This document shows, one piece after another, positions 9,006 through 33,680 of a stretch of DNA of 44,007 bases (position 1 is the first letter of the stretch; each line of letters begins with the position of its first letter). Under the pieces are notes generated by a model. That model saw only the letters and a list, made by a program, of their open reading frames with translations. It was not told the DNA's origin and made no database searches. The DNA is taken from the NCBI GenBank assembly GCA_013215505.1, contig JABSQZ010000019.1, positions 84,515 to 128,521 on the forward strand, given 5' to 3'. Origin of the DNA: Oceanospirillaceae bacterium. Its GTDB lineage: Bacteria > Pseudomonadota > Gammaproteobacteria > Pseudomonadales > Balneatricaceae. Position numbers and translations under genes: made by a program.

Positions 9006-9016
9006 AGTAGTTTGAT

Positions 9017-9091
9017 GGGGGGATATAGAGGTATAACACTCTAGTGGTAGTGCTAGTATTACTAGGTCGCTAAGTGTATCTACATCCCCCC
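9017..9091 (+). repeat. Long hairpin element H2
   Basis: Arms GGGGGGAT and ATCCCCCC, then ATAGA with TCTAC, ACACT with AGTGT, and CTAGT with ACTAG around a central GTGCTAGTATT. The partner element H3 at 11552 has different bases that keep the same pairs. There is no T-tract, so a simple terminator is not favoured. Confidence 0.75.
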
Positions 9092-9650
9092 TTACTAGGT
9101 ACTACAGGTCCTATACAAACTAGGTTTTCAGAATACGGTGCTGTGGTGATGTATATTTCTTCGCCAGGCATGACATAGGCAGGATGAATAGCAACTCCCC
9201 TCCATTCAACTTCTGTGTCAGTACTTATTGTTTAAAAGAAGTGAGTTAAAGAGGATGAACATAAGTGATGATAATCGAGTAGTTTTCTTCAACTAAAGAA
9301 ACGGCTAAAGGTTACTAGCTTTATTTATATTGAAATGCTTAATGGTAAGTTAATTTTTAGGTAACTATTTCAATAATATTATTAATAGTAAGTTAAGTTT
9401 TAAGCTACGTCTCTGTTCTATATATATTAATATAATTAATGTTGAGTTAAGGCTGATATACAATTGTTCTTCTCTGGTTTTATTAACTGTATATTACTTC
9501 TTGGCGCATTACTCGGAGTGAAAAGCCTTAACGTTTTTTATTAAATGACTTGCTGGATCTAATTGTAAATTGTAGTAATAAATGAAGTATACAATCTACT
9601 TTTTATGGTATTTTCTGAATTAGAACTTATTTATTTCAGGATTAACTATT
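9092..9650. promoter_or_regulatory. AT-rich upstream region of the autotransporter
   Basis: About 560 bases with no gene. It holds three direct repeats: TTAATGGTAAGTTAATTTTT at 9339, TTAATAGTAAGTTAAGTTTT at 9382 and the shorter TTAATGTTGAGTTAAGG at 9436. They are spaced 43 and 54 bases apart, which fits repeated binding of a regulator upstream of the autotransporter gene. Confidence 0.5.
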
Positions 9651-13010: not shown

Positions 13011-13036
13011 TTAAAATTTCCATGGGAGGTAGGCTA

Positions 13037-14260
13037 ATGTCACTAAACGATCGGGAAATTAAAAGTGCTAAAGCACGTGAGAAAGACTACAAGCTTTCAG
13101 ATGAGAAAGGGTTATACCTTCTTGTCACCAAAGCTGGTGGAAAGCTCTTTCGTTTAAAGTACCGCTACCAAGGCAAAGAGAAGAAACTCTCTATTGGCTC
13201 CTACCCTGATATCAGTTTAAAAGTAGCTCGCGGAATACGCGATGATGCCCGGACAAAGTTAGCTGATGGCATCGACCCCTCCCTATTTAAGAAAATCTTG
13301 AAAGAGACTCAACGAAGCAATCTGGAAAATAGCTTTGAAGTGGTGGCTTTGGAATGGTTTTCGATAAAGCAAAAAGATAAAGCTACAGGCACTAAAGAAC
13401 GCGTCAACAACATATTTAATCGTTATCTCTTCCCCATGCTTGGCCCTTTAGCTATCAACGAAATTCCTACCTCTACTATATTAGCAACCCTTAAAGCTAT
13501 AGAAAAAAGAGGAGCGCTTGAAACCACCCGTCGAGCCAGACAGCTTGTTAGTCAAATCTACCGATACGCAATTGCCACAGGTCGAGCGGACAGGGATCCC
13601 ATCCCAGATCTAAAAGGTGCATTTGAGCCCCAGCGGGTTGAGCACCATTCAGCGATGACTGAGCCTAAAGACGTCGGGCATCTTATGGTTGCGATAGACA
13701 ATTTTCGAGGCACATTAGTTGTACAAACGGCTATGAAGCTATCCGCACTGTTCTTTTGCCGCCCTGGAGAAATACGCCACTTAAAATGGGAAAGTATAAA
13801 TTCAGAAGAACTGCGCATTGAAATAATATCTGACAAGACTAAGCAACCTCACATCATCCCCTTAAGCCGGCAGGCAATTACTTTATTAGATGAGCTTCAC
13901 CCTTTGACGGGCAGGAGTGAGTATATTTTGCCTTCGGCTAGAGGCAGAAGCCGCCCAATGTCAGAAAACGCAGTTAGAACGGCGTTAAGGACTATGGGCT
14001 ATGACAACGACACAATGACAGCTCACGGCTTTAGAGCTATGGCTAGAACGCTACTGGATGAAGTACTTGAATACCGGATTGAATGGATAGAGCAACAACT
14101 GGCCCATGCTGTAAAGGATCCTAACGGAAGGGCGTATAACCGCACTAAGCATTTAAAGCAACGTACTGAAATGATGCAACGCTGGGCTGACTACCTGGAC
14201 GAATTAAGAGAACAAGCATTAGCCAAAAACGTTGTTACAGGCAATTTCAGCCGAGCTTAA
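13037..14260 (+). CDS. P4-type tyrosine integrase
   Basis: 407 residues from the ATG that follows GGAGG seven bases upstream; an ATG 15 bases earlier lies before that site and is rejected. The N-terminus (LNDREIKSAKAREKDYKLSD, then YRYQGKEKKLSIGSYPDISL) is the DUF4102 arm-binding domain of P4-like integrases. A core-binding domain follows (about 100-190). The catalytic domain has Arg in FFCRPGEIRHLKWE, Lys in ISDKTKQPHIIPL, HGFRAMARTLL, the second His in QQLAHAVKD and a Tyr in GRAYNRTKHL. All five to six active residues are present. It would integrate the element through the attachment site upstream and is the first gene of the satellite module. Confidence 0.93.
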   Translation: MSLNDREIKSAKAREKDYKLSDEKGLYLLVTKAGGKLFRLKYRYQGKEKKLSIGSYPDISLKVARGIRDDARTKLADGIDPSLFKKILKETQRSNLENSFEVVALEWFSIKQKDKATGTKERVNNIFNRYLFPMLGPLAINEIPTSTILATLKAIEKRGALETTRRARQLVSQIYRYAIATGRADRDPIPDLKGAFEPQRVEHHSAMTEPKDVGHLMVAIDNFRGTLVVQTAMKLSALFFCRPGEIRHLKWESINSEELRIEIISDKTKQPHIIPLSRQAITLLDELHPLTGRSEYILPSARGRSRPMSENAVRTALRTMGYDNDTMTAHGFRAMARTLLDEVLEYRIEWIEQQLAHAVKDPNGRAYNRTKHLKQRTEMMQRWADYLDELREQALAKNVVTGNFSRA

Positions 14261-14364: not shown

Positions 14365-15183
14365 ATGAGCATAGTAAAAATAACGTCTACAAAAGACCTT
14401 CCTAGCTGGTTCAAGATTCAAAACTATTCGAGCTTATCTCTGGAAACCGAAATTGTTTTGTACAGACAAATAGTTTCAAGAGTCGCAATTTTAAGATCCT
14501 TGAATCTTGGGCGGGAGATGAATATTCACGATAAGCTAGAGTGGAAATTTATCCAACAATTTGGAGCTGTCACAGGTGAGAAAATCGAAAAATTGTATAG
14601 GGCCGAGAGTAATAAGCTTGGATTGAAAGAGTTTAAAAAAGATTTTAAGGATGATCCCGCTCTCAATTTAAGAAAAGGGGCTAGTGTAACCCCTTTAACA
14701 GCTAGACATATAGCCAGAATGATGATGGGAATGATGGCCTCAAAAGCAGAAGAAACTGGGGATCCCTTTGATGCTTTCGATTTGCGCGACCACAAATATC
14801 ACATTGAACAAGGAAGTGAGAATACAGTTAACATCACTATTAATCTTAGATATAGAGATCGTAAAATCCTCTCCGAGTTAGAAGATTTGCTGCCTATTTA
14901 CAGAAAATCTTTGGGCTCAGCTCCACCTAAAAAGAGCCCTCAGAAGAAAACCCCTCTTAAAATATTAAATAACAAAGTGATTCCTTTATTGGATTTATTG
15001 ATTTGGGCTAAGAACAATAATTCAGAAATATCCTATACAGTATTGGCCGTCACTTTGTTTCCAGATGGCACCAAAGGTGAGGAAGAATTAAGAAAAACTA
15101 TAGTCCCATTCACGCTAGCGATGACTGAAAACACATTTGTAGATGAATGGGAGGCCGATTTAGAGCCTTCGTTGGACGGATAA
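14365..15183 (+). CDS. Hypothetical protein, DUF6387-like
   Basis: 272 residues. It begins IVKITSTKDLPSWFKIQNYSSL; the DLP.WF...Y opening resembles DUF6387 proteins, which are often found next to integrases in gammaproteobacterial mobile elements. The body is helical with a basic linker near residues 189-203 (PPKKSPQKKTPLK), followed by a second folded segment. No catalytic motif is visible and no function is known. It lies about 100 bases after the integrase, separated by the inverted-repeat structure. The family assignment is from memory of the N-terminal motif only. Confidence 0.55.
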   Translation: MSIVKITSTKDLPSWFKIQNYSSLSLETEIVLYRQIVSRVAILRSLNLGREMNIHDKLEWKFIQQFGAVTGEKIEKLYRAESNKLGLKEFKKDFKDDPALNLRKGASVTPLTARHIARMMMGMMASKAEETGDPFDAFDLRDHKYHIEQGSENTVNITINLRYRDRKILSELEDLLPIYRKSLGSAPPKKSPQKKTPLKILNNKVIPLLDLLIWAKNNNSEISYTVLAVTLFPDGTKGEEELRKTIVPFTLAMTENTFVDEWEADLEPSLDG

Positions 15184-15380: not shown

Positions 15381-15572
15381 ATGAATAGAATTATCAGGCG
15401 TCCAGAAGTTGAGCATTTAACCGGTATCGGCAGGTCTGCAATTTATCGAGGGATGCAAGATGGAAGCTTCCCAAAAAATATAAGCCTGGGAGGTAAAGCT
15501 GTAGGTTGGAAAGAAAGTGATATCCAAGGATGGATAACAAAGCAGATTGAAGCTGCTGGCATGGAGGCTTAA
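15381..15572 (+). CDS. AlpA-family transcriptional regulator
   Basis: 63 residues, the usual size of AlpA/excisionase-like regulators of P4-type satellites and prophages. The sequence RRPEVEHLTGIGRSAIYRGM is the MerR-like helix-turn-helix, followed by GSFPKNISLGGKAVGWKESDI and IQGWI, both typical of the family. AGGGG lies six bases before the start. AlpA proteins activate integrase or satellite genes and can direct excision. It is the first gene of a tightly packed run (spacing of 2 bases, then overlaps) that continues to repA, so it probably heads the satellite operon. Confidence 0.92.
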   Translation: MNRIIRRPEVEHLTGIGRSAIYRGMQDGSFPKNISLGGKAVGWKESDIQGWITKQIEAAGMEA

Positions 15573-15574
15573 CG

Positions 15575-15886
15575 ATGAATAAGCACTTACCAGCCGCTCC
15601 GACAGCGACCAGCAAGATAAAATGCCTTCCGAAGAAGATTGTATCACTCAAGCATTCAATAACAAGATCGCTTATCGAGCCTGAAGCCCTTGGGTTATAC
15701 GGTGATACCTGCCTCCATAGCACTATAAGCACCTTATGGAATACGCATGGTATAGCCTTTGACCGCAAGTCAGAGAAATACGGCGTTCACGGCGTCCAAT
15801 TTACTCGCTACACCCTTCAAGAAAGCAGTAGAGATAAAGCCCACCAGCTTATAGTTCATTATGAAGGGAGGCTAGCCAATGCGTAA
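15575..15886 (+). CDS. Small putative winged-helix protein of the satellite operon
   Basis: 103 residues, starting two bases after the AlpA stop. The segment CLHSTISTLWNTHGIAFDRK, then GVQFTRYTL, resembles the helix-turn-helix plus wing seen in small phage proteins where a motif like LR..HGI..DRK is followed by a beta turn. This is a weak resemblance. It overlaps the next gene by eight bases, so translation is probably coupled. A role in satellite regulation or replication is inferred from position. Confidence 0.55.
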   Translation: MNKHLPAAPTATSKIKCLPKKIVSLKHSITRSLIEPEALGLYGDTCLHSTISTLWNTHGIAFDRKSEKYGVHGVQFTRYTLQESSRDKAHQLIVHYEGRLANA

Positions 15887-16535
15887 TCAACCATCCCTCA
15901 TCAAGTTGCGGCAAGTAGGTTTTGAATTCAGAGTAGATAGCCGCGTTATTCCCGATCTGTTAAATAACCAGCATAAGAATGTTCTAGCGCTATTATTACG
16001 TTATCAATCTGACTTTGAAGAGTTTGGTACTTTCGCGTTTCAAACGCGGAAGTCTGGAGGCAGAGAAACAAAGTTTGTTCTGCTAAATAGATCCCAATCT
16101 GAATTACTACTAACCTATTCTTCGAACACACCTGAATCAAGGCGGTTAAAAATAGGCCTTATTAAGGCTTTCGATAAAGCTAGGAACACACTCGAGGCAA
16201 GTGGCAACTACATACCATTTTATCACGCTGCGCATGAGAGTTTACAAACAGTCATCGATGAATCAGGCAGTAGTACACCTGCAGCAATTCATCATATGAA
16301 CCTTGAAAAGCTGATAAACAAAACCTTTGGCTTACACCCTGGTACCCGAAAAGAGCAACCAATAGAGATCAGGCTAATGATTGGTTCTGCTATGGCCTTA
16401 GCATCTAGGGTATATAAGCAAGCACTTGCTAACGGGCAAGACCACAAGATAGCTTATCACTCGGTTAAAACTCAGCTTGAGGGGCATATATCACAGCTCA
16501 CAAGTCCCAAAGTGCTGAAGGGAGGTCTACAATGA
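15879..16535 (+). CDS. Rha-like phage regulatory protein
   Basis: 218 residues, with GGGAGG before the start. The N-terminal part has NNQHKNVLALLLRYQSDFEE (about 28-47), the HKNV core of the Rha family, then ETKFVLLNRSQSELLLTYS and a helix ending KIGLIKAFDKARNTLE, matching the Rha order of a beta pair and the AF helix. The C-terminal 120 residues are helical and not recognised, in the place where Rha proteins carry variable domains. Rha proteins act as antirepressor-like regulators in phages and satellites. It overlaps the upstream and downstream reading frames. Confidence 0.7.
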   Translation: MRNQPSLIKLRQVGFEFRVDSRVIPDLLNNQHKNVLALLLRYQSDFEEFGTFAFQTRKSGGRETKFVLLNRSQSELLLTYSSNTPESRRLKIGLIKAFDKARNTLEASGNYIPFYHAAHESLQTVIDESGSSTPAAIHHMNLEKLINKTFGLHPGTRKEQPIEIRLMIGSAMALASRVYKQALANGQDHKIAYHSVKTQLEGHISQLTSPKVLKGGLQ

Positions 16536-16912: not shown

Positions 16913-17276
16913 TAATTACACTGCTTTTGCGCACCTTCTCACTCAAACAGCCGAAAAAGTCCCTCAGGAGCTGTTGCCTAGCCTGGTTAGTCATTCATTA
17001 GATGCTTTGGATGAGTTTATCTTGGTATCAGCCTGCCTAAACAAGATGGCCTCATATACCAACTTTGATGAGATGCCAGACGGCGCGAGAATGTTAAGTA
17101 CCGTTAACTGCGCTATTGCAGACTTAGGGCATGCTATAGGTTCACTAAACCGATACTGCGAAAACATTGACGCTATACAGAAAAACAAACTACGCCCCAA
17201 AAATCCTATTACCCCTATACAGGGTAAAAACACCCCCCAAATAGGGGTAAAGAGTAACGTGGGAGGCTGTAAATGA
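16902..17276 (+). CDS. Hypothetical satellite-operon protein
   Basis: 124 residues from the ATG preceded by GGAGG; a start 13 codons upstream is possible but lacks a site. Mostly helical (AFAHLLTQTAEKVPQELLPS, DALDEFILVSACLNKMASY), with a Pro-rich basic tail. No domain is recognised. It overlaps the next gene by four bases, which ties it to the primase-like and RepA-like genes; a small replication or regulatory partner is a reasonable guess. Confidence 0.55.
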   Translation: MLTDNYTAFAHLLTQTAEKVPQELLPSLVSHSLDALDEFILVSACLNKMASYTNFDEMPDGARMLSTVNCAIADLGHAIGSLNRYCENIDAIQKNKLRPKNPITPIQGKNTPQIGVKSNVGGCK

Positions 17277-17683
17277 TTACCAGCATTCTCTCCAGACTTA
17301 CAAAAGTCGTTACTCGCTCAAACGATAGGTGGATGGCTTGCTGTCCAGCACACGATGATAGCTCCCCCAGCTTATCTGTTACTCAATCTAGTGATGGAAA
17401 GATACTCTTGCATTGCTTTGCCGGCTGCTCAATAGAGGAGATTACAGGCGCCTTAGGTTTAAGCCTAAACAAACTATTCCCTGATAACGGGTTTACCCAT
17501 AGGGATTACCGTCATCAGCTCAAACAAAGCCAATATAAAGAAATACTTTCCAATGAGCAGTTGATAGTTGCTTTAGCTGAAGCAGAAATTAAGCGTAACC
17601 ACCGGCTAAACTCAGAGAATGTCGCCAGGCATTTATTAGCGCTTTCCAGAATCAAGAAATTGGAGGTGCTTATCTATGTCTAA
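17273..17683 (+). CDS. CHC2 zinc-finger primase-like protein
   Basis: 136 residues. The N-terminal half is a CHC2-type zinc-binding domain: WMACCPAHDDSSPSLSV (about 20-36) supplies Cys and His, and KILLHCFAGCSIEEI (about 43-57) the other two cysteines. The protein ends after about 80 further residues and has no TOPRIM catalytic domain, so it is not a full primase. Such a split zinc-finger gene upstream of a RepA-like ATPase is seen in some satellites and plasmids. The RepA-like gene overlaps it by eight bases. It likely helps load or prime replication at the iteron array. Confidence 0.75.
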   Translation: MITSILSRLTKVVTRSNDRWMACCPAHDDSSPSLSVTQSSDGKILLHCFAGCSIEEITGALGLSLNKLFPDNGFTHRDYRHQLKQSQYKEILSNEQLIVALAEAEIKRNHRLNSENVARHLLALSRIKKLEVLIYV

Positions 17684-18755
17684 TATTCGAAAACTAACCC
17701 CTATCATTGAAGAGATCGATAGTTTGCCTGATATTGGAGTTACATCCAGATTAGCATTGGCCGTTGGATCCGAGGGTTATGATGCGTCGCAATCTTGGCT
17801 TGTGAAAGGTCTTATACCTGGTGACTCATCAATTGGCTTATATGGCCCAAGTGGAAGTTTTAAAAGCTTTCTCGCGTTATCGCTGTGTTGCCATATATCG
17901 ATAGGTAAAGAATGGGATGGCCGCAAGGTGACACAAGGTAATGTACTGTATGTTGTGGGGGAGGGTGGTATAGGTGTTCCACGTAGAATCAGAGGCTGGG
18001 AAAAACACTTTAATAATGGTGAACCATTAACTGGTATGTATCGAGTTAAAGGCCCTGTATTCCCCGCAACGCGTGAGGCCGTGTTTGACGTGATTAATGA
18101 TTGCCAGTACATAGAGAATCAAACTGGTCAGCCGGTTAAGCTGGTGGTGTTTGATACTTTAGCTCGCTGCTTTGGTGGTAACGATGAAAACTCAGCTAAA
18201 GATATGGGGGCTTTTATCCAAGGCTGTGATGCTATTAAACAAGGCACTGGCGCAACTGTGATGGTAGTTCACCATTCAGGTAAGAATGAAGAGGCCGGCG
18301 CCCGTGGTTCTTCTGCTCTTAGAGGTGCGCTAGATGTCGAATTGATGGTTAAGCGTGATGGTAAAGAAACAGCTCTCACTCTCTCCTGTATGAAGATGAA
18401 AGACGCGGAAGCACCAGATACCTTCGCCTATGATCTAAAATCACTGACTACTCACTTTGATGAGGATGGGGACCCAGTAACGACTCTGGTACTGATACCA
18501 GAAGGCAGAGAGGCAACCACCAGCGAGAACAAGCCTAATGCTGGTAATGTATCAGGGAATCATCAGGCTGTATGGCAAGCAGTAAGAAGTCGCAGAAAGG
18601 TGGGGGAGTCTGTATCACAACAGGTTGTGAGAGGTGATTTAAAAGCACAAGGGATTGATACTAAAAACCTCGCGCGCTGGATAGCAAAATTGGTCGATGA
18701 TGGACAGCTAATTAAGGAGGGAGATTTGTTATTTATGCCTGACTCTTGCCTATGA
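17676..18755 (+). CDS. RepA-like AAA ATPase/helicase
   Basis: 359 residues, close to plasmid RSF1010-type RepA helicases (AAA_25/RecA fold). Walker A is GLYGPSGSFKSFLALSL (about 50-66), Walker B is KLVVFDTLARC (about 151-161), followed by GNDENSAKDMGAFI, then ATVMVVHHSGKN (about 193-204) and the arginine-finger-like GARGSSALRGALD. The C-terminal 90 residues form a separate domain, probably winged helix (VRGDLKAQGIDTKNLARWIAKLVDDG). The stop codon leads straight into the iteron array. Residues from about 225 to the end are closely matched by a decayed copy at 35071-35431 and 37567-37611. It probably unwinds the origin for element replication. Confidence 0.85.
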   Translation: MSNIRKLTPIIEEIDSLPDIGVTSRLALAVGSEGYDASQSWLVKGLIPGDSSIGLYGPSGSFKSFLALSLCCHISIGKEWDGRKVTQGNVLYVVGEGGIGVPRRIRGWEKHFNNGEPLTGMYRVKGPVFPATREAVFDVINDCQYIENQTGQPVKLVVFDTLARCFGGNDENSAKDMGAFIQGCDAIKQGTGATVMVVHHSGKNEEAGARGSSALRGALDVELMVKRDGKETALTLSCMKMKDAEAPDTFAYDLKSLTTHFDEDGDPVTTLVLIPEGREATTSENKPNAGNVSGNHQAVWQAVRSRRKVGESVSQQVVRGDLKAQGIDTKNLARWIAKLVDDGQLIKEGDLLFMPDSCL

Positions 18756-18960
18756 AAAGTGAGGCATGAAGTGAGGAAAAAGTGAGTCGACTCTAAAAAG
18801 TGAGTCGCCTCACTCACTTTTGGTGTATATACAAGAAAAGTGAGTGAGCCGTATGTTTTTTTCCCTAGATCGCCCGTATTTACTGGTCTCTTGTTCGCCT
18901 CACTTGCCTTTCTCAAAAATAAAAGTGAGGCGTAGAAAAGTGAGGCATAAAGTGAGGCGC
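18755..18960. repeat. Iteron array, candidate origin 1
   Basis: About ten copies of AAAAGTGAGGC or AAAAGTGAGTCG in both directions: forward at 18755, 18769, 18777, 18796, 18836, 18921, 18936 and 18949; inverted (CGCCTCACT) at about 18806 and 18897. Between them is an AT-rich stretch (GTATGTTTTTTTCCC). Direct and inverted iterons immediately after a RepA-like gene strongly suggest the element's replication origin. A second array with the same layout but a changed repeat is at 37613-37815. Confidence 0.8.
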
Positions 18961-18973: not shown

Positions 18974-21481
18974 TTAAGTAATAATTGATTCTGATTTTTC
19001 CCAATCATCATAGAGTTTTGAGGTGTTTTTTCCAGAAAAATCTAATCCATCAAACGGGCTTATATAATCTTCGTTTTCTGAAGATACTAATACTTTTAAG
19101 GAGATGTTTTGTTTAAATAACAACCTAAAGCGCACTTCAATCTCAGCAATTTTATGTCTAGTCTCCTCTAATTTACTATCATCATCCGATATTTTTTCAA
19201 AAATTAAGTAGGCCTCATCTGGATATGTTTCTTCTATTATATTTAAAAATGTTTCTATTGCACCCTCTTTGTCGCAAAAATAATCAGCACTCCGCTTAGC
19301 TTCACCAACAAAGAATTTTCCGTCATACACACCAATAAGATCAATTTCATTTTTGTTTTTATCCCTATAATCATATTTAAGCAATACTTCTGGGGCGTAA
19401 AAGAAAGAATCGTTTCTGCTAGATTTTTGTATTTCATTAAGCCCCCATATCACAGGTAGGGCGTGATTTACGTATACAGTCTTATGTATAAACTTGTTCA
19501 ATAGATACATCCAAGAAAATTCTGTCCCTATAAGCATGTCATGCTTATATGAACATATATCACACCAGTTCTTTGCTTGTAGAGTATCAACCGATTTCAA
19601 ATTTTTATGTCCACATTTATCGCAAGCCCAAATGTAAACTGGACTAATAACTTCCTTGCGGATCAATAACTCAAAAGAATCTTTGAAACTCGCGGCTATA
19701 AATTTTTTAGCATCATTTATAGAGCTTAACCGAAGTTCCTTCATTATATGGGCTTTTGTAATCTCATTTCCTAAGCTAAAATTTTTTATTTTGTCATATT
19801 TAAAGATATAATCGTAACTACCGTCTTGCTTAATAATATGATCATATACATCACGCCAAAGTTTATTTGTCAAAATTTTAGCAGCTTCACCAAGGCTGCC
19901 GAACACTGAAACTACACCAATAAAGTTCTTCCCCTTATCGGAATGAGTGATGTATTCAATATTGGTTTTAAATACACCGCATCTCATATCATTTTTCGGA
20001 TAATTTTTCTTACCAATTATCAGAAAGTTTATGATATCAATATCACCTGGTAATGTGAGTTTTATCGATAACGCTGAATTATCATCGATTCGACCAAAGG
20101 AAGCATTGCTCTTACCGACCAGAAAAGTAGGTAATTTATTTTTACTTACCCTTAAACAACGCGGTCCGAAAATCCCTGATACATACGCCCTTCTTGGCAA
20201 TAGCCAGCTATCTACAACATTGTTATATGCAGATAAATTATTATGTCTATCTATAGAGCACTCTACAAAAAACTCACCAGCAGCATGCGATTTGTATATT
20301 GCAGGAATATACTTTAAATGCTCGGGCCCATTGGTGACGGTGTCGGAAATATCTTCTGTTACAGTGAAGCTGACTTTATCAGTGATAAATCTATACATGT
20401 CTTCTAGTTGCTGCTTAGTTGGAGCAACTATTTTGTCATGTTCATGTGCAACTGAAATGATGTTATGGGTATATAACCGAAGGCCTTCGCTAATTTCAAT
20501 CAATTTGTTGTTTGTTACAGATTTTGATCGAAGCACTGCTTTATTGTGATTACTACCAGTGAAATTTAATTTGTTTAGGTATTCACCTAAGGCCTTTAAA
20601 AAATTATTATCAGAAAGTTGCTCTGCAGATAGAATTAAAGAACAAGCTGAATCATGCCTATCTGAATAAAACTTCCTTGAATTCCAAAAACAGATTCGAT
20701 CTTCGACACTTGAGCCAACAAAAATTGCAAACGAATCGCTAATCCCATCTGCTCTGGTAGAGCCAATAGATTCTGTATGAATTGAAGCCAACCTAGAAAT
20801 TGAAATAGCCTCTCTTCTTGCTAATTTTCCAATAATTTCAATGGTAGAATTCACTGTATACGTGCCGACACAATTGTATTCAAGAGTATTTTGAGCGGTC
20901 AAACAAATAGTTCCAAACAGATCTCGAACTTCATGCAAAACAGTGCCCATAGAATACTGGTTACCAAAATTATCAGTTATAAAACGATCACCTACAGCTG
21001 GTGAGTTTTGGCTAATAATATTTACCTTTTCTACAAGGTGAACAGGTCTTCGATGCGTAAAAACTAACGGGCTATGGATTGTGGATATAGAGCTTACAGG
21101 ATTGCAGTAGTGCTCAATTTTGACAGCTAAATATTTTCCCTCCCTTCCAAAATCATGCTCAATAAGATGCGCAGGTGAATTAGACTTCTCTATATTTTTG
21201 ACTAATGTCTCTTTTAATGGAATGAAACTATAAACAATGTCTGCATCATAAAAATCAAGCCAATCTAAAAACTTTTGATCTATGATGTCTCCATCCGATG
21301 TAGGAATAACAAGAAACTTGGCTCCCCCCCAGCAAGTATATGAATATTTGAAAATCGCATCTAGTACTGCGTGGTTCTCGTTATTTTCTTCATTCGAGGT
21401 TATGAACGCTATTTTAATCGGACGGTTATAACCTGTTACTTTAACGCTATTCTCTAATCGTTCTGGGCGTTTGAAGGGCAT
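18974..21481 (-). CDS. Unrecognised 835-aa protein with zinc ribbon and PD-(D/E)XK nuclease motif
   Basis: I do not recognise this protein as a named system. The N-terminus (KIAFITSNEENNENHAVLDA, then CWGGAKFLVIPT and DWLDFYDADIVYSF) looks like an alpha/beta fold; the WGG..xxIP...D.DIVY pattern occurs in uncharacterised large proteins. The middle (about 150-600) is mixed and unassigned. Near 625-655 two Cys pairs, WACDKCGHKN and WCDICSYK, form a zinc ribbon. Near 710-735 NEIDLIGVYDGKFFVGEAKR has the Asp and Glu-x-Lys of a PD-(D/E)XK nuclease. It is AT-rich, stands alone on the minus strand, and begins right beside the iteron array, in the cargo slot of the satellite. A single-gene nuclease defence effector is the best inference; a specialised restriction enzyme is an alternative. 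The ribosome binding site is weak. Confidence 0.7.
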   Translation of the reverse strand: MPFKRPERLENSVKVTGYNRPIKIAFITSNEENNENHAVLDAIFKYSYTCWGGAKFLVIPTSDGDIIDQKFLDWLDFYDADIVYSFIPLKETLVKNIEKSNSPAHLIEHDFGREGKYLAVKIEHYCNPVSSISTIHSPLVFTHRRPVHLVEKVNIISQNSPAVGDRFITDNFGNQYSMGTVLHEVRDLFGTICLTAQNTLEYNCVGTYTVNSTIEIIGKLARREAISISRLASIHTESIGSTRADGISDSFAIFVGSSVEDRICFWNSRKFYSDRHDSACSLILSAEQLSDNNFLKALGEYLNKLNFTGSNHNKAVLRSKSVTNNKLIEISEGLRLYTHNIISVAHEHDKIVAPTKQQLEDMYRFITDKVSFTVTEDISDTVTNGPEHLKYIPAIYKSHAAGEFFVECSIDRHNNLSAYNNVVDSWLLPRRAYVSGIFGPRCLRVSKNKLPTFLVGKSNASFGRIDDNSALSIKLTLPGDIDIINFLIIGKKNYPKNDMRCGVFKTNIEYITHSDKGKNFIGVVSVFGSLGEAAKILTNKLWRDVYDHIIKQDGSYDYIFKYDKIKNFSLGNEITKAHIMKELRLSSINDAKKFIAASFKDSFELLIRKEVISPVYIWACDKCGHKNLKSVDTLQAKNWCDICSYKHDMLIGTEFSWMYLLNKFIHKTVYVNHALPVIWGLNEIQKSSRNDSFFYAPEVLLKYDYRDKNKNEIDLIGVYDGKFFVGEAKRSADYFCDKEGAIETFLNIIEETYPDEAYLIFEKISDDDSKLEETRHKIAEIEVRFRLLFKQNISLKVLVSSENEDYISPFDGLDFSGKNTSKLYDDWEKSESIIT

Positions 21482-22260
21482 GAAATTATGATCCTATATT
21501 CCTTTATTTAAACCATTAGACTCACATTATTGCCAGTAAACTTAACGACTTTCTGTGCTAATTTACTACCAACTCATTGTTATGGCTTTGCGTTCATTTA
21601 TGCCCATATTACCCGTTTACTCTTTATAAAAATAGGCAGTGTGTCTAGTAGTATCTTCTTTCAATACAAAGGCTTAATGCTGCTGATAAATGATCACCAA
21701 AGAACCCAATAATTTTCCGGCAACCGCGAGTTTTAAATGGTCATGATTGCAGCGAAATAGCCAGTAACCGCGGGCCTGTCATGCACTTGGCTGTGCCCAT
21801 GTAGCCAGGTTGCCCGACAGAAATCAAAGGAAGATATCCCTAACCACCTAACATTCAGCTTTAATTTAAACTATGCGGATTTGCATAGTTAACTCCTCAG
21901 ATCTGAGGAGTTAACAGGCTGTTACTGGTGGACTTGCCAAGTTTCATTTTTATTCTCTGTCCATATAAAAATCTTTTTAAGGGTTGGTGTCCGCTATTAG
22001 CATAGGCTCCAGAGATTTATCCCCCCCTACCGGCCGATTATCATAGAGTAATTATCCGTTGGACAGAGCAGAAATGAGGTCTAACAGCAGCAGCTGAAAG
22101 TTAAGGGATAGGGGGATCAGATCCTTTGGGCTTATAGGTTAAGCGGACACTGCCACCTAATAAGATTTTCTATGGTCGAAATTAAAAAATAAAACGATCT
22201 CAATTCTGATCCCTCAGATCTTCGGAGTTAAAATGTGGAAGTAGTTACAATCTGTTGGGC
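21482..22260. other. Gene-free junction between satellite and catabolic cluster
   Basis: About 780 bases with no supported gene. A hairpin CTATGC-N6-GCATAG at 21871-21888 touches a perfect 28-bp palindrome at 21888-21915. A partial copy (CTCAGATCTTCGGAGTTAA) lies at 22214-22232. The base composition shifts near here toward the more GC-rich catabolic cluster. Confidence 0.6.
21888..21915. repeat. Perfect 28-bp palindrome
   Basis: The half-site GTTAACTCCTCAGA is followed directly by its exact reverse complement, with no spacer. It may be an operator for a dimeric regulator, a resolution site, or a trace of an insertion. There is no nearby gene start for it to control. Confidence 0.7.
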
Positions 22261-22380
22261 TTAACCAGTCCATCTATGTGCTGGTAATTCGATGTATAGA
22301 AAGAGCGATCTGATAGCCAGCTTAGAGTAGGTATACCCCCGGCCCATTTTCCCTGTGCCAATGAAAGCAATTTTCATCAT
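22261..22380 (-). pseudogene. N-terminal stub of a hydroxyisobutyrate-dehydrogenase-like gene
   Basis: From 22380 the minus strand reads MMKIAFIGTGKMGRGY, the start and dinucleotide-binding loop (GxGxMGRG) of the same family as the intact reductase at 33940-34842. Homology ends after about 16 codons and the frame stops at 22261. It lies just beyond the terminator of the binding-protein gene, so it appears to be what remains of a gene cut off at the left edge of the catabolic cluster. Confidence 0.6.
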
Positions 22381-22470: not shown

Positions 22471-23430
22471 TTAATAGCCTAAGCTAAGCGCTATAGCGTT
22501 AACGTTAGCACGCTCTTCGTCGACCCACTTCATAAGTTTGTCGCCCGATTCGCAGCGCCAGATTACAGACAGATCGTCTAGTTTTTTACGCATTTCCTTG
22601 TTATCACCTAAGGCGCAGACAGCACTGGCTAATTTGCTTATTACCATTGGTGGTGTTCCCTTAGGAACAAAGAAGCCTTTCATTTGGAAAGCATTGAGAT
22701 CTACTCCCTGCTCAGTTGCAGTGGGTACATCAGGCATGCTGCTTAAACGATTGGGGCCAAATACCGCTAATACACGTAGATCACCAGAGCGGTGTAGACC
22801 TAATACTCCTGGAGGGGGATCGATCATACCTGCAGAGTGTCCACCTAAGACCGATGCTTTTTTCTTGGCACCGCCTCCGGCATTAATCAGCTTTAAATCA
22901 ACATCTAGTGCCTGCTCAGTTTTGATTGCAACGAAGTGTGCCAAGGTACCCACACCCATCGACAGACCTATTTCACCAGGGGCTTTTTTAGCTGCTGATT
23001 GATAGTCGCTGAGATTCTTGTAGGGGCTGTCACCTTTTACTGCCAAGGTCAGTGGCATAAATCCGATACTCACTGCTGGCAGATAGTCAGCGTTAGCATA
23101 ATTACCTAAACCAACGGCTTGAGCAATTAGCGTGTTGGTCTGTAGTGTCCCTATGGTATAACCGTCCGGCTTGGCATCAATAGCAGCCTGGGTACCGACG
23201 GCACCACCGGCACCTTTGATGTTAACGATAATAGAAGTTTGTCCTAACGTTTTTTCCAAGTAAGGAAGAATAGTACGGAAAACGACATCAGTTGTCCCGC
23301 CTGGTCCAAACGGAATAATAATTCTTACGGTTTTGTCTTCAGGGTATTCCGCATGAGCATTGGTGGCCAGTATCCCCAGTGAAAATGCCAGAATGGATGC
23401 GCCGATTAGGGTTTTCTTGATTGGTCTCAT
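22471..23430 (-). CDS. tctC: Tripartite tricarboxylate transporter substrate-binding protein (TctC/Bug family)
   Basis: 319 residues, the family's usual length. A signal peptide (KKTLIGASILAFSLGILATN, cleavage after AHA) sends it to the periplasm. The mature start YPEDKTVRIIIPFGPGGTTD is the Bug-family substrate loop, and GAGGAVGTQAAIDAKPDGYT is the second characteristic loop. A C-terminal cysteine pair (VCALGD, WRCESGD) may form a disulphide. It would deliver a carboxylate to the TctA/TctB membrane proteins encoded on the other strand at 26625-28638. It lies downstream of the LysR gene on the same strand, with a LysR-type site just upstream and a terminator after it, so it is probably its own transcription unit. 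Confidence 0.93.
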   Translation of the reverse strand: MRPIKKTLIGASILAFSLGILATNAHAEYPEDKTVRIIIPFGPGGTTDVVFRTILPYLEKTLGQTSIIVNIKGAGGAVGTQAAIDAKPDGYTIGTLQTNTLIAQAVGLGNYANADYLPAVSIGFMPLTLAVKGDSPYKNLSDYQSAAKKAPGEIGLSMGVGTLAHFVAIKTEQALDVDLKLINAGGGAKKKASVLGGHSAGMIDPPPGVLGLHRSGDLRVLAVFGPNRLSSMPDVPTATEQGVDLNAFQMKGFFVPKGTPPMVISKLASAVCALGDNKEMRKKLDDLSVIWRCESGDKLMKWVDEERANVNAIALSLGY

Positions 23431-23580
23431 TTGTAAACCTCATCTTTTTATTGTTTTCTATGAATGTATTTGTCTCTATGGCCGGAAAACCCAACAACAT
23501 TGATATTCGTTTAACCTGCCAATAGACATTACTATAAGTCGTTCAGGCTATGAAAAAAAATTCCATTTCAATGTGGGTGA

Positions 23581-23595
23581 ATTCCATAAAGGAAT
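23581..23595. promoter_or_regulatory. LysR-type box upstream of tctC
   Basis: ATTCC-ATAAA-GGAAT, a T-N11-A palindrome. It starts about 150 bases upstream of tctC and ends two bases from the LysR stop codon. The same half-sites occur at 24505-24519, so both are probably bound by the LysR protein between them. Confidence 0.65.
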
Positions 23596-23597
23596 AC

Positions 23598-24494
23598 CTA
23601 GAAATTTGCACGATCTTGAAGTTCTTTCATCCCTTTAACCAGAAAGCTCATAAAAGTCTGGATTAACCTGGATTGCTCTCCGTGTGGTAACAGCATCGCA
23701 TATTCTAAGTTTATTGCCGGATTAAAGGGGCGTATGGCCAGGCGGGACTCGAAAGCCGAGGCTATCAGCGGGTGCACTATTGATATACCGGCACCGGCCG
23801 CCACTAACTGACATACAAGTAAGGAGGTTTGAGAGTGTATTTTCAAGTTGCGTTTGACCCCCATTTCGCTAAACAGCAGATCGACGCGATGACGCAGTAG
23901 TGTCTCAGTGTCGACAGATATATAGGACTTGCCTTGCAAGTCTAATGCTGAAATTTCTTGTAAACGTGCCAGCTCATGGCCTACTGGCAAGATACAAACA
24001 GCTTCAGCATTCGCCAGATGCACCACTTTCAGGCGCTGGGTTTCCGCTGGCATAGTGATGAGGCCGATGTCGTAATGACCGATGGTCACTAATTCTTCAA
24101 TTTGCTCTCTGGGTTTGATATCCACCGAACACTGCACCCCCGGATACATCTCTGTGAATCGCCGCAGTACCGAGGGAATAAGGCCGTGACCCAATGCGGG
24201 CATTGCGCCTATTTTTAGAGCTCCGGCCTTGAGGGCACCCGTATCCTTTGACTTATTCTTGATAGCATCGACAGTATTTAAGACCAGTTCAATATCGGCA
24301 TACATCATTTTTCCTTCAGGAGTCATGATTAAGCGACCATGGCGCCGGTCAAAAATTTTGATATTGAGCTCATCTTCGAGTTGGCCAAGCAGTTTGCTGA
24401 CAGCTGACTGGGTCAGGCTTAGATACTCCGCCGCCTCACTGGTCGTTCCGGTACGCACTATTGCGCGCAAGGCTTCAAATTGTCTTAATTTCAT
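23598..24494 (-). CDS. LysR-family transcriptional regulator
   Basis: 298 residues, standard for LysR regulators. The N-terminal winged helix is clear: KLRQFEALRAIVRTGTTSEA, then EYLSLTQSAVSKLLGQLEDE and KIFDRRHGRLIMTPEG. The rest is the periplasmic-binding-like effector domain (KIGAMPALGHGLIPSVLRRF onward). It lies between tctC, on the same strand, and the divergent catabolic operon, the classic place for a LysR activator that responds to the substrate or an intermediate. A matching box overlaps the region just upstream of its own start, which suggests autoregulation. Confidence 0.93.
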   Translation of the reverse strand: MKLRQFEALRAIVRTGTTSEAAEYLSLTQSAVSKLLGQLEDELNIKIFDRRHGRLIMTPEGKMMYADIELVLNTVDAIKNKSKDTGALKAGALKIGAMPALGHGLIPSVLRRFTEMYPGVQCSVDIKPREQIEELVTIGHYDIGLITMPAETQRLKVVHLANAEAVCILPVGHELARLQEISALDLQGKSYISVDTETLLRHRVDLLFSEMGVKRNLKIHSQTSLLVCQLVAAGAGISIVHPLIASAFESRLAIRPFNPAINLEYAMLLPHGEQSRLIQTFMSFLVKGMKELQDRANF

Positions 24495-24504
24495 AGAAAT
24501 TGGT

Positions 24505-24519
24505 ATTCCTTTTTGGAAT
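24505..24519. promoter_or_regulatory. LysR-type box in the divergent promoter
   Basis: ATTCC-TTTTT-GGAAT, a T-N11-A palindrome, ten bases upstream of the LysR start and about 95 bases upstream of the aldolase gene. The half-sites are identical to those at 23581-23595. Confidence 0.65.
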
Positions 24520-24611
24520 TCTCTGTGTAGATATTATCATTTTAAATCATACCGTTTCAGGTATACAGTAGCTCCATGTACAAATCAAATAGATCTTGAT
24601 GAGGTTTTTTT

Positions 24612-25379
24612 ATGCGCAAAAATAATATCAAACGTATTTGGGCCGAAGGCGGAGTGGTGCTCAATTGCTTCCTGTCTATTGCGGATGCCTACAGTGCCGA
24701 GCTAATGGCTCACCAAGGTTTTGACTGCTTGACCGTCGATCTGCAGCACGGTCTTCAGGATATGGGAGATGCAGCTTTACAATTTCAGGCAATTTCAACC
24801 ACGGATACCGTACCAGTCGCTCGTGTCCCCTGGTTGGAGCCGGTCTCCATCATGAAAACGCTGGATTTGGGTGCCTCAGCGCTGATATGTCCGTTGGTTA
24901 ACAACCGCAAGGACGCCGAGACTCTGGTCCAATATGCCAAATATCCTCCTCTAGGGGAGCGCAGTTTCGGCCCTCACAGGCAGATGCTGTATGCCGGTGC
25001 CGATTACCCACAACATGCAAATGATGAAAGCGTGCTGATTGCGATGATCGAAACCCGCGAAGCTTTAGATAACCTTGAGGAGATCGCCTCTACCCCCGGC
25101 ATTGATGCTCTGTATATTGGGCCCGCTGACCTTTCCTTGAATTTGGGCTTTCCACCAGGTTTCGAGCCAGATCAGCCGGAGATGGTGGCAGCCTTCGATG
25201 CAGTGCTTAAAGCGGCCCGCGATGCAGGTATCATCGCCGGCATTCACTGTGGCAGCACCGCATTCGCCAATCGAATGATTGATCGTGGTTTTCGTCTAGT
25301 GACCGTGCTCAATGATGGCAAGTTGATGGCTCAGGCTTCACAACAGGTTATCCAGAACATTCAGAGGACAGCCAAGTGA
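24612..25379 (+). CDS. HpcH/HpaI-family class II aldolase
   Basis: 255 residues, the length of GarL and HpaI. Family signatures: FDCLTVDLQHGLQDMGDA (about 34-51) supplies the catalytic His, PVARVPWLEPVSIMKTLDLG (about 71-90), PLVNNRKDAETLVQYAKYPP then GERSFGPHR (about 97-124), MIETREALDNLEEI with the metal-binding Glu, and DALYIGPADLSLNLGF with the metal-binding Asp. The family cleaves 2-keto acids to pyruvate plus an aldehyde. With an enolase-superfamily gene next to it and a tartronate-semialdehyde-reductase-like gene in the cluster, a GarL-like role is plausible; the exact substrate cannot be told. It is the first gene of the plus-strand operon. Confidence 0.88.
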   Translation: MRKNNIKRIWAEGGVVLNCFLSIADAYSAELMAHQGFDCLTVDLQHGLQDMGDAALQFQAISTTDTVPVARVPWLEPVSIMKTLDLGASALICPLVNNRKDAETLVQYAKYPPLGERSFGPHRQMLYAGADYPQHANDESVLIAMIETREALDNLEEIASTPGIDALYIGPADLSLNLGFPPGFEPDQPEMVAAFDAVLKAARDAGIIAGIHCGSTAFANRMIDRGFRLVTVLNDGKLMAQASQQVIQNIQRTAK

Positions 25380-26587
25380 CCATTATTGAGCCGATCTATA
25401 AGCAGTCGGTGGACGCGCCTATTCGGCGTATTGAGGTCATCGAATTTAATTACCCGGTAGCTGATGTCGCTCGGGGCAAGAACAGTGCTAAACCGGTTTA
25501 TCAACCGGGTCAGAGCAGCTCGACCAGCAGTTTTGCACTGCGTATTGAGGCGTGGGACGGTCGGCTTGGTGAGTATGTCCCCCATATGGGTGGGCGTAAG
25601 GCTGTGCTGGCGCAAGTGTTGCAATTGGCGCCTACCTTGGTCGGCATGCTCTCCAGTGAGCGTCCGAAGTTTTTCGAACGCGGCAAGAGGCAACTGCAAA
25701 CGCTTGGTTTCCTGGGTGTCGGTCCATTGGATATCTGTCTTTGGGACCTAAGTGCCAAGCAGCTCAATACTTCAGTGCAGCAGTTAGTCGGTAGCTACCG
25801 CGATCGCCTGCCTGTATATGCCAGCCTGATTCACTGTGATGTAGATGGCGGACTGGCCACGCAAGATGACTTAGTTGCGGCAGGTCGTTATATGGTTGAT
25901 CAGGGCTTTAAGGGCTTTAAGTTTCGCGGTTGGTCCCATGGCTGTGTGGATGCTCATCGCTCGGCAGTATTTAGCATGGCGGAAAATGTCAATAACTCAA
26001 AGATAAAATTGATGCTCGACCCAGGCGGAGATCTGGTGACTTTCGCAGATGCACTCAGCGTCGGCAGGGCCTGTGATGAGGCTGGATTTTTTTGGCTCGA
26101 AGACCCGCTGCGTGATACCGGTAAATCTATGGCCGGTAATCGACGCCTGCGAGAAAAGCTAAAGACTTCACTGTTGGTGACAGAGCATGTGCGTGGGCTT
26201 GAAGCCAAAGCAGACTGGGTTGTCTCAGGTGCAACTGATTTTCTTCGCGCCGACCCGGAACTCGACTTAGGCATTACCGGCGCTCTCAAAATTGCCAGTC
26301 TTGGGGAAGCTTTCGGTATGGATGTTGAAATACATGGATCGGGCCCAGCTCACCGGATCTGCATGGCCGCTATTCGCAATACCAATTTTTATGAAATGGG
26401 TTTGTTAACTCCCAATGGCACCAATATCAACGCCCCGCCGGTATATAGCTGTGGCTACGACGACCACGTATCAGGACTGGGAGCAGATGGCTGTATTTCT
26501 CCCGCTAAAGGTCTGGGCTTGGGCGTCTCATATGACTGGGAATTTATTCGGCGCAACGCTTGTAACAGCTACCTATTTGAAGAGTAA
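25376..26587 (+). CDS. Enolase-superfamily enzyme (mandelate racemase/acid-sugar dehydratase type)
   Basis: 403 residues, starting with a GTG that overlaps the aldolase stop by four bases. The N-terminal capping domain is followed by the barrel: GFKGFKFRGWSHG (about 181-193; first catalytic Lys, the second position is Arg), LMLDPGGD (metal Asp), FFWLEDPLRD (metal Glu), LLVTEHVRG (third Glu), RADPELDLGITGALKIASLG and VEIHGSGPAH, which give the Asp-His dyad of the mandelate racemase subgroup. Such enzymes dehydrate or epimerise hydroxy acids. Dehydration of an aldarate-like substrate would feed the upstream aldolase. The substrate is not predictable from motifs alone. Confidence 0.88.
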   Translation: MTIIEPIYKQSVDAPIRRIEVIEFNYPVADVARGKNSAKPVYQPGQSSSTSSFALRIEAWDGRLGEYVPHMGGRKAVLAQVLQLAPTLVGMLSSERPKFFERGKRQLQTLGFLGVGPLDICLWDLSAKQLNTSVQQLVGSYRDRLPVYASLIHCDVDGGLATQDDLVAAGRYMVDQGFKGFKFRGWSHGCVDAHRSAVFSMAENVNNSKIKLMLDPGGDLVTFADALSVGRACDEAGFFWLEDPLRDTGKSMAGNRRLREKLKTSLLVTEHVRGLEAKADWVVSGATDFLRADPELDLGITGALKIASLGEAFGMDVEIHGSGPAHRICMAAIRNTNFYEMGLLTPNGTNINAPPVYSCGYDDHVSGLGADGCISPAKGLGLGVSYDWEFIRRNACNSYLFEE

Positions 26588-26624
26588 TTACGACTAAACA
26601 ATAACAATTAATGAGAGCATCCCT

Positions 26625-27086
26625 ATGTCTCAAGTCAATAAGAATAGTACCTACGACCGAACAGTCGGGTTATGCCTGCTGGTATTTTGTGCTCTGCTGT
26701 ACTGGAATACCTTCAGTTTTAAAACTCGGCTGTTTGTCGAGCTAAATACCACCTTCTGGCCCCGAACTATACTGGCCATTCTTGCCATTATCGGCCTCAT
26801 TTTGGTGATCCGCGGCAAACTCACGGATGAAGTGCGCGAACCTATTTCATGGAAGTCGCTATTAACGGCTGGGGTGGGACTATTTTATGTCGTACTGATC
26901 CCCGTACTTGGGTTTATCCCCCTGACGATAGTGTTTCTGACCCTCAGTTTTAGCGTTATTAAGCAAGATTTTAGTCGCCAGACTCTGGTTAAGGGAGTGA
27001 TTATTGCGGTGCTGGCGACGGTTGTGATTCACACACTGTTTGGCCAGGTTATGAAAGTACAGTTGCCAGGCGGCTTTTGGGAGTAA
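26625..27086 (+). CDS. tctB: Tripartite tricarboxylate transporter small membrane subunit (TctB)
   Basis: 153 residues with about four hydrophobic segments (VGLCLLVFCALLYW, FWPRTILAILAIIGLILVI, LLTAGVGLFYVVLIPVLGF, GVIIAVLATVVIHTLFG). The FWPR motif after the first helix is common in TctB. It is 37 bases after the enolase gene and 4 bases before tctA. With TctA and TctC it forms a secondary uptake system for a carboxylate. Confidence 0.88.
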   Translation: MSQVNKNSTYDRTVGLCLLVFCALLYWNTFSFKTRLFVELNTTFWPRTILAILAIIGLILVIRGKLTDEVREPISWKSLLTAGVGLFYVVLIPVLGFIPLTIVFLTLSFSVIKQDFSRQTLVKGVIIAVLATVVIHTLFGQVMKVQLPGGFWE

Positions 27087-27090
27087 TGCA

Positions 27091-28638
27091 ATGGATATTT
27101 TAGATTCGATTCTTGGTGGTTTGGAATTAATCGCCGACCCATCAACAGCGGCATTAATGGTATTTGGTACCCTCTGTGGCATTGTCGTCGGAATTATACC
27201 CGGCCTGAGTGCCACCATGGCCATCGCACTGCTGATACCTTTCACCTTCACTATGGATCCGGTGGTGGCGATGGCGCTGCTGGTGGTGGTCTACGTCGGC
27301 GGAATTTCTGGCGGGGCATTAACCGCCATTTTAATTCGGATGCCCGGTACGCCTTCATCAGTAGCCACCGTGCTCGATGGTTATCCAATGACACAGAACG
27401 GTCAGGCCGGAAAAGCGATTGGCAATGCCGTGGTGGCTTCCTTTGTCGGTACTGTGGTCAGTGGCTGTTTCTTGATGGCTTTCGCTCCTACCCTGGCCAG
27501 ATTCGCTGTGCAGTTCTTCTACTCTGAATACGTCGCGGTCTGCTTGTTTGCGCTGGCTGCAGTGGTCTCCGTCTCTGGAAAATCATTACTCCGCGGCTTG
27601 GTAACCATGACCTTGGGGATGCTGGCGGCTACCTTCGGCATGTCCGAAGTTGATGGTTTACCCCGATTTACCTTCGGTATCTCCGAGTTCAATGCAGGTT
27701 TTAGTTTGATCCCTGCGCTAATCGGTTTCTTCGCAATCTCGCAGATTATGAAGGAGTCAATGGCTGACAATAGAGATCGACTTAAGCCCGGGGCAATGGT
27801 GATTGGTCGGATGCTTCCCTCGTTTTCTGACATTTACTCTAACATTGGAAACTACATACGCTCTAGTCTGATCGGCACCCTTATCGGTGTACTGCCTGCG
27901 ATGGGAGGGGCTCCAGCCGCGCTGATCTCCTATGCCCAAGCTAAGAATGCCTCTAAGACCCCCGAGCGTTTTGGCAAAGGGGCCGTTGAGGGCATTATCG
28001 CCTCTGAAACGGCTAACAATGCGACGATTGGCGGGGCGTTGATCATCGCCCTGACACTGGGAATTCCAGGTGACCCTGCGACAGCTATTTTAATTGGCGG
28101 GTTGATGATCCATGGCCTGCAACCTGGACCGCAATTATTCACTCAAACACCTGAAGTGGTTTACGCCATCTACCTTGCGGTGTTCTTCGGTTCCATCGTG
28201 ATGATGATCGCGATGCTGACCTTGAGTCGCTATTTATGTCGACTGGTCGACCTTCCCAAGGAGTATTTCCTACCGATTTTGTTCATCGTGGCGGCTACCG
28301 GTGTCTACTCCATGAATAATCGCATGTTTGATGTTGGCGTGATGGTTGGCTTCGGTGTGTTAGGTTACTTGTTCGAGCGGATGCGCTACCCACTGGCTCC
28401 CTTTGTGCTCGGCATGTTACTGGGTCCGATAATCGAAGATAACTTCCGCCGTCTAGTCGAGGTGGATGGACATGCATGGGGGCTCTTTACCCGACCTATC
28501 TCCTTAGCCTTCTTAATCGCAGCGGCTTTATTTCTGGCCTTCTCGATATGGAAACACCACCAAGATCAGCAAAAGTCGCGAGACTCTGAGGATGCGCAAC
28601 TAGAGACTAATGTTGCCAAAGCAGAGAAAACTCTGTAA
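27091..28638 (+). CDS. tctA: Tripartite tricarboxylate transporter large membrane subunit (TctA)
   Basis: 515 residues with about 11-12 membrane segments. Signature stretches: GTLCGIVVGIIPGLSATMAI (about 28-47), VVYVGGISGGALTAILIRMP then GTPSSVATVLDGYPM (about 66-100), and ASETANNATIGGALIIALTL with GIPGDPATAILIGGLMIHGL later. These glycine- and proline-rich loops are typical of the family. The C-terminal tail is hydrophilic. The stop overlaps the next gene's start (TAATG), so the following permease is probably translated with it. Confidence 0.95.
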   Translation: MDILDSILGGLELIADPSTAALMVFGTLCGIVVGIIPGLSATMAIALLIPFTFTMDPVVAMALLVVVYVGGISGGALTAILIRMPGTPSSVATVLDGYPMTQNGQAGKAIGNAVVASFVGTVVSGCFLMAFAPTLARFAVQFFYSEYVAVCLFALAAVVSVSGKSLLRGLVTMTLGMLAATFGMSEVDGLPRFTFGISEFNAGFSLIPALIGFFAISQIMKESMADNRDRLKPGAMVIGRMLPSFSDIYSNIGNYIRSSLIGTLIGVLPAMGGAPAALISYAQAKNASKTPERFGKGAVEGIIASETANNATIGGALIIALTLGIPGDPATAILIGGLMIHGLQPGPQLFTQTPEVVYAIYLAVFFGSIVMMIAMLTLSRYLCRLVDLPKEYFLPILFIVAATGVYSMNNRMFDVGVMVGFGVLGYLFERMRYPLAPFVLGMLLGPIIEDNFRRLVEVDGHAWGLFTRPISLAFLIAAALFLAFSIWKHHQDQQKSRDSEDAQLETNVAKAEKTL

Positions 28639-30017: not shown

Positions 30018-30026
30018 GGTATAACA

Positions 30027-30830: not shown

Positions 30831-30842
30831 AACCCAATCAAT

Positions 30843-32818: not shown

Positions 32819-32820
32819 AA

Positions 32821-33600: not shown

Positions 33601-33613
33601 AACCAACTTAAGC

Positions 33614-33635: not shown

Positions 33636-33680
33636 CTATTGTTAGCGGTAATGGGGCGATGCGCCCCTGAGGAGTAATTT

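Follow-up and report, generated by a model that had tools for sequence, protein, structure and literature searches.

The window, that is, the whole 44,007-nucleotide stretch of DNA that was analysed, carries a large minus-strand gene, P0001, next to a group of integrase, regulator and replication genes. A large open reading frame had been claimed at 18974-21481 by a model that saw only the letters (the sequence-only reading), and an intact gene for an 835-aa protein could be confirmed there. The features of the locus were as follows.

13022..14260, plus strand, tyrosine integrase of the element (Pfam)
14365..15183, plus strand, DUF6387 protein (Pfam)
15381..15572, plus strand, AlpA-type regulator
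15879..16535, plus strand, Rha-family regulator (Pfam)
17273..17683, plus strand, CHC2 zinc-finger primase piece (Pfam, PHROGs)
17676..18755, plus strand, AAA_25 replicative helicase (Pfam, PHROGs)
18759..18958, no strand, iteron-like cluster and putative origin (8 GTGAG(T/G)C-type heptamers; direct repeats)
18974..21481, minus strand, nuclease-family gene P0001 (ATG start, 835 aa, without internal stop)
21888..22263, no strand, repeated intergenic stretch upstream of the gene (perfect 28-nt palindrome at 21888-21915)

The gene had been placed beside the replication origin of an integrative satellite, and both parts of this description were strengthened. The upstream genes for integrase, AlpA, Rha, CHC2 primase and AAA_25 helicase support an element, and the gene set of a P4-like integrative satellite (integrase, AlpA, primase/helicase and iterons) was present. 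An origin is plausible: of the 16 heptamers of GTGAG(T/G)C type that the window has on its two strands, 8 started at 18759-18952, compared with about 0.04 per 218 bases elsewhere. This cluster lies between the helicase gene and P0001. The G+C content was 34.6% for the gene, 42.9% for the element genes and 49.8% for the stretch 22471-37300. P0001 is AT-rich cargo and lies at one end of an element of the integrase-AlpA-primase-helicase type. A same-genus genome was collinear with the window only from 22338 rightwards, so the gene lies outside the stretch shared with that genome. No convincing candidates for att repeats were found at the element ends.

A match to the helicase was present in 18 of 116 genomes of the bacterial family, the own genome included. 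For related elements, stretches of 12.7-14.0 kb were taken around those three full-length helicases that were closest by tblastn (L083, L084 and L085; 50-52% identical). Primase and helicase matches occurred at all three loci and AlpA in L083 and L085 only; a tblastn integrase match was obtained in L083 and L085, and L084 carried an integrase relative at E 1e-12. The nuclease gene was absent by tblastn from all three. This absence, the G+C content below that of the element genes and the occurrence of relatives on several unrelated plasmids make it improbable that P0001 serves the element itself in replication, resolution or the exclusion of rival elements, a function that its position adjoining the iteron cluster and the recombinases near some relatives would fit.

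Further observations concern the surroundings of the element. A second, partial copy of the 3' end of the element helicase (71% protein identity) lay at 35071-35368, and a stretch 71% like the iteron region, with the heptamers absent, at 37573-37812; a SulP-type sulphate permease gene separates the two, and an integrase fragment follows at 37916-38551. An autotransporter-type protein with internal repeats was encoded to the left of the element, at 9651-11429.

The product of P0001 had been called unrecognised, and this was borne out by all searches, which gave no convincing match: the best E values were 0.12 in Pfam and 0.083 in NCBIfam (both under the cut-off), 0.029 in PHROGs and 0.58 against PDB sequences, and PADLOC returned no match at E 1 or better. 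The family is unnamed in all four profile libraries searched (Pfam, PADLOC, PHROGs and NCBIfam). Among 17 members, weak Pfam hints could be seen to PDDEXK_10 in two (best E 0.057) and to zf-Sec23_Sec24 in four (best E 0.0072). No description of the family was found in the literature searched at abstract level, one passage of the DefensePredictor paper (PMC13092281) included, and no publications mentioning the accessions of four relatives were found.

Relatives were seen at about 31 places besides the window, in Pseudomonadota, on Actinomycetota plasmids and in a Marinimicrobia MAG, where two near-identical Burkholderia glumae plasmids (L003 and L004) were counted separately. A tblastn search of 72,556 plasmid records revealed near full-length relatives on three, one of Piscirickettsia salmonis (28% identity) and two of B. 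glumae (23%). A three-sequence profile added 17 loci in genome contigs, one of them (L020) a fragment and the nearest in Acinetobacter pittii (L005, 45% identity). Further relatives were found in the genomes G923 (L046), G905 (L045), G918 (L061), G822 (L062), G864 (L063) and G825 (in two pieces), and on plasmids of Photobacterium, Bradyrhizobium, Streptomyces and, initially as a weak hit (E 0.2), Rhodococcus. The same-genus copy, L043, was 60% identical over 604 residues and was cut by a contig end. A distant group of four could be joined to the main group through its C half (hhalign probability 98.9, E 2.2e-17), while the first N-terminal unit matched three of the four (probability 88, E 3e-6).

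The distribution of the family is sparse and sporadic. In genome draws that overlap one another, it was present in 1 of 390 genomes at the order level and 1 of 369 at the class level (in both cases the own genome), in 4 of 398 at the phylum level (the own genome, G825, G905 and G923) and in 2 of 7 in the genus (the own genome and G1103); another class draw gave 2 of 240, namely G905, one of the sequences of the query alignment, and G1236, with a weak match. Two queries against 50,697 phage records found no relative, and neither did five viral-contig scans resting on short exact patterns.

The motifs named in the sequence-only reading were all located in the protein: WGG at residues 51-53, IP at 59-60, D79-x-D81-IVY, C620-x2-C623...C640-x2-C643, NEIDLIGVYDG at 711-721 and GEAK at 726-729. 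Residue conservation was tallied on the 26 near-complete rows of a 29-sequence alignment, whose incomplete rows (L043, L062 and L063) were left out and which did not contain L004, L020 and L026. The relatives in the tally were 14-45% identical to the window protein. Each of the four cysteines, D714 and E727 were kept in 26 of 26 rows, so the motifs exceed what chance would give. K729 was kept in all rows but L046 (25 of 26, T in L046) and E712 in all but L061, which has D (25 of 26). All 25 rows reaching R20 and D81 kept both, D261, W266 and N267 were kept in 24 of 26 each, and R262 in 20 of 26. WGG was loosely kept, being I-D-G in L061 and carrying H or D for W in several rows. The L046 homologue (8220-10817) has T at the position of the catalytic Lys, where the other 25 rows have Lys; it may be a natural variant that lacks activity, or the rows may be misaligned locally.

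The dN/dS ratio against the same-genus homologue was 0.18 over 604 codons (dS 1.55, near saturation), and selection on the gene, as estimated from these codons, is purifying. PD-(D/E)XK nucleases also serve repair, and purifying selection would suit a cellular repair or housekeeping nuclease as well; set against the sporadic presence of the family, such a role is very improbable.

The following regions could be distinguished in the protein by modelling and conservation.

21152..21445, minus strand, predicted Rossmann-like unit 1, residues 13-110 (R20-P21, WGG 51-53, D81; models and conservation)
20447..20734, minus strand, predicted Rossmann-like unit 2, residues about 250-345 (motif G-x4-D-R-x3-W-N; models and conservation)
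19658..20404, minus strand, predicted beta region and helical region, residues 360-608 (model, partly low confidence)
19553..19630, minus strand, four-Cys Zn ribbon, W618-x-C620-x2-C623-x3-N627...C640-x2-C643 (conservation)
19082..19519, minus strand, predicted PD-(D/E)XK nuclease domain, residues 655-800 (model, Foldseek, hhalign)
19295..19351, minus strand, predicted catalytic motif E712-x-D714...D720-G...E727-x-K729, residues 711-729 (alignment)

The full-length AlphaFold2 model, built on 17 sequences, had a mean pLDDT of 71.9 and a pTM of 0.74. In its secondary structure the first Rossmann-like unit was read at about 24-110, the beta region runs to about residue 475, helices occupy 480-608 and the Zn ribbon spans 612-650. 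The "long unassigned middle" described earlier has predicted features, namely a second Rossmann-like unit, a region of beta structure and a region of helices. The order of helices and strands at 655-800 may be read as a restriction-endonuclease core, in which the predicted strands 710-719 and 722-731 carry D714, E727 and K729; this agrees with the superfamily layout of an acid followed by (D/E)-x-K on central strands. The invariant residues and the model together support the Zn ribbon and the predicted nuclease of the sequence-only reading, whose proposed structure check gave a C-terminus modelled as nuclease-like, with best matches of the Can2 type.

When the full model was compared with the PDB by Foldseek, the matches that reached E 0.001 were two, each to Can2 (5.9e-4 and 9.1e-4). 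Ranks 1-9 were all Can2, Cdn1 or VC1899 (E 5.9e-4 to 7.4e-3), and unrelated enzymes or folds appeared from rank 10 on. The TM-scores by query were at most 0.18 with large rmsd, and therefore the domains were not superposed as one body. Among viral models, one match reached E 0.001, Gp146 of Bacillus phage G (5.5e-4, function unnamed); the best 50 included eight with nuclease names, all at E above 0.001, beside unnamed proteins and other enzymes. A model of the N half, built for the L012 homologue, had a mean pLDDT of 86.9 and a pTM of 0.89; searched alone, it gave a mixed list in which no PDB fold reached E 0.001.

These matches raise the question of a Card1/Can2-type effector, in which a signalling system would supply a cyclic oligonucleotide, and a CARF-like N half would bind it and switch the nuclease on. 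The predicted architecture is like that of Card1/Can2 (PF09002, DUF1887, CARF-nuclease) in having a Rossmann-like N part and a C-terminal PD-(D/E)XK domain in one chain, and the Can2, Cdn1 and VC1899 ranks of the whole model speak for such an effector. A DUF1887 protein (8bao) also aligned with the nuclease segment in a search of the C-terminal profile against the PDB, at a non-significant E of 0.11; an NZF-type finger was found at E 0.039, likewise not significant. However, a two-sequence Card1 profile aligned with the nuclease core alone (hhalign probability 4.7 for the full profile and 11.8 for the C-terminal part), and the N half reached a probability of only 0.5 against it, with no useful alignment. 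Together with the lack of a PDB fold match for the N half at E 0.001 and of a PF09002 match at E 1 or better in Pfam, this does not support the CARF or second-messenger membership suggested by the whole-model search. Unlike Card1/Can2 proteins, which have about 410-450 aa, P0001 has 835 aa with two predicted Rossmann-like units and an extra Zn ribbon, it gave no CARF profile signal, and no CRISPR genes were found among the window genes scanned.

Signalling genes were sought in five relative-carrying genomes. Cas10-palm matches exceeded the family cut-off in two (G1103 and G918), and the model is not specific here because an E. coli control also exceeded it; in the own genome the matches stayed below the cut-off. 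A SMODS cyclase (CD-NTase), as expected for a CBASS effector, was found in 0 of 5. A cyclic-nucleotide cue is less likely, and membership of the Card1/Can2 type is rather unlikely.

Direct restriction of the type IV kind, in which the N half would read a modified base or DNA structure and the nuclease would cut without a separate signal, is unlikely too, but deserves somewhat more credence. One chain with a predicted nuclease, a Zn ribbon and an uncharacterised N half would suit it, and the relatives L006 and L018 lie near type IIG restriction enzymes; against it, profile scans (of the window protein with Pfam and NCBIfam, and of 17 members with Pfam) found no known modification-reader or NTPase domain, and the N half is read from the models as Rossmann-like.

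Joining of the same N half to other effectors was also considered. An N-half profile matched 6 of 279 genomes (G905, G923, G918, G822, G864 and G825). The matches in G905, G918 and G923, the last of which has T for K729, extend to the nuclease motif in the alignment, the frame in G822 keeps the Zn cysteines before its contig ends ahead of the nuclease, the G864 frame runs off its contig, and the G825 frame of 498 aa stops before the C half, with a separate Zn-ribbon-nuclease piece on another contig. No swap was thus seen among the six.

The neighbourhoods of the relatives were compared by clustering ORFs of at least 60 aa within 7 kb of 22 loci, the near-identical plasmids L003 and L004 among them. 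No non-family gene occurred in more than 4 of the 22, and the largest non-family cluster (four loci) joined the window's integrase with L006, L010 and L019. The suggestion that no partner gene is adjacent therefore agrees with the absence of a recurrent partner, and no housekeeping neighbour recurs around these loci. The description of the gene as standing alone held for the window and not for all relatives, as L046 and L045 have same-strand ORFs ending 9 and 18 nt upstream of the homologue.

The closer of these, a 1226-aa ORF at 4530-8210 of L046, lies between an integrase and the homologue on the same strand and ends 9 nt upstream of the homologue. It had no Pfam or PADLOC match, a P-loop-like motif could be read in it by eye, and it is a candidate partner or second defence gene. 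At L045, a 208-aa same-strand ORF (8214-8840) without a Pfam match lies 18 nt upstream of the distant homologue.

Recombinases and defence genes were found near some relatives. An integrase adjoins the relative in L046, a resolvase lies near that in L006 and tyrosine recombinases near those in L003/L004. In L061 (7446-10917), an integrase 32% identical to that of the window (E 2e-68) and the homologue lie 28 nt apart as a two-gene unit, with no further gene between the pair and the flanking ORFs in a list of ORFs of at least 120 aa. In a bulk scan of 95 ORFs from L005-L021, out of 163 listed for L002, L004-L021 and L023, Phage_integrase was matched by 4 and Resolvase by 3. The same 95 ORFs matched 145 PADLOC families; among the best 25 of the 145, each was found in at most 2 of 95, and 22 were type I specificity models, the others being mad5, mad2 and PbeA. 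The mad2 and PbeA matches of L006 fall on its type IIG enzyme. Type IIG restriction enzymes near L006 and L018 accounted for 2 of 10 neighbour proteins scanned, the other 8 having no PADLOC match. A second scan of 10 neighbour proteins gave 5 with and 5 without a match, including IetS and AbiJ at L051, a partial MkoA match at L002 and, at L052, a type I methyltransferase together with a weak match to a type II enzyme. Location near other defence genes was thus seen for some relatives (L006, L018, L051 and L052), and several loci, such as A. pittii L005, had no assigned defence neighbour.

The family is rare, and some members have mobile or phage-defence genes nearby, so the protein may be a one-gene bacterial immune nuclease. 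We consider it somewhat probable that P0001 encodes a nuclease which acts as a single protein against phages (or mobile elements) and is cargo of an integrative satellite-like element. Counted for this were the conservation of the Zn and active-site residues in the 26 proteins and of R20 and D81 in 25 of 25, the Can2/Cdn1/VC1899 best folds, the weak Pfam hints, the sporadic spread, the cargo status and the dN/dS of 0.18, as well as the L061 integrase-homologue unit, the defence and recombinase neighbours and the lack of any gene recurring in more than 4 of 22 loci. Counted against it were the few bulk neighbour matches, the lack of a PADLOC match of P0001 and of relatives in phage records, the loci without a defence neighbour, T729 in L046, the close same-strand ORFs of L046 and L045, the low Foldseek TM-scores and the unrelated folds from rank 10. 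The earlier interpretation as a defence gene was thus supported in part: the Zn ribbon with the predicted nuclease, the cargo position and the lack of a recurrent partner agree with it, and the defence role is suggested by neighbour context.

For such an anti-phage nuclease, the N half with its two Rossmann-like units, together with the middle region, would form the sensor and switch; this sensor role is suggested by the layout of the model. The Zn ribbon would hold nucleic acid beside the C-terminal PD-(D/E)XK core. Once the sensor met an infection cue, the core would cut DNA, perhaps RNA, so that the invader would be destroyed or the cell stopped. The gene, its family, the invariant Zn and catalytic residues, the predicted fold, the cargo position and purifying selection are results of the analysis; nuclease activity, activation, substrate and defence role of P0001 are inferred.

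P0001 is best called a putative single-chain sensor plus PD-(D/E)XK effector. On this view it would work like Shedu (SduA, DUF4263), a defence system of one gene whose product combines a PD-(D/E)XK nuclease with an N part that varies; unlike Shedu, it had no DUF4263 match in Pfam and no match in PADLOC, both at E 1 or better. According to one account, P4-like satellites carry defence cargo (PMC9122126), and the element is like these in its gene content, namely the integrase, AlpA, primase/helicase, origin-like iterons and an accessory gene.

More broadly, the relatives might form a rare, widespread family of one-protein immune nucleases, in which a two-Rossmann N half is an unrecognised infection sensor coupled by the Zn ribbon to a PD-(D/E)XK effector, and which has spread through Pseudomonadota and Actinomycetota either by itself or accompanied by no more than an integrase; to this view we give slightly less than even credence. 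If true, it would add a compact single-gene immune nuclease family that none of the four profile libraries contains and whose N half gave no significant solved match. Its residues (the four Cys, D714, E727, K729, R20, D81 and W266) would then allow infection sensing and cutting by a single protein to be tested directly.

Some minor observations concern the flanks and signals of the gene. Promoter-like sites numbered 11, compared with 12.9 in shuffles, and terminator-like sites 6, compared with 2.6. The palindrome stretch at 21888-22263 had a DNA fold z of -6.4, and pieces similar to it were present elsewhere in the own genome and upstream of the same-genus homologue.
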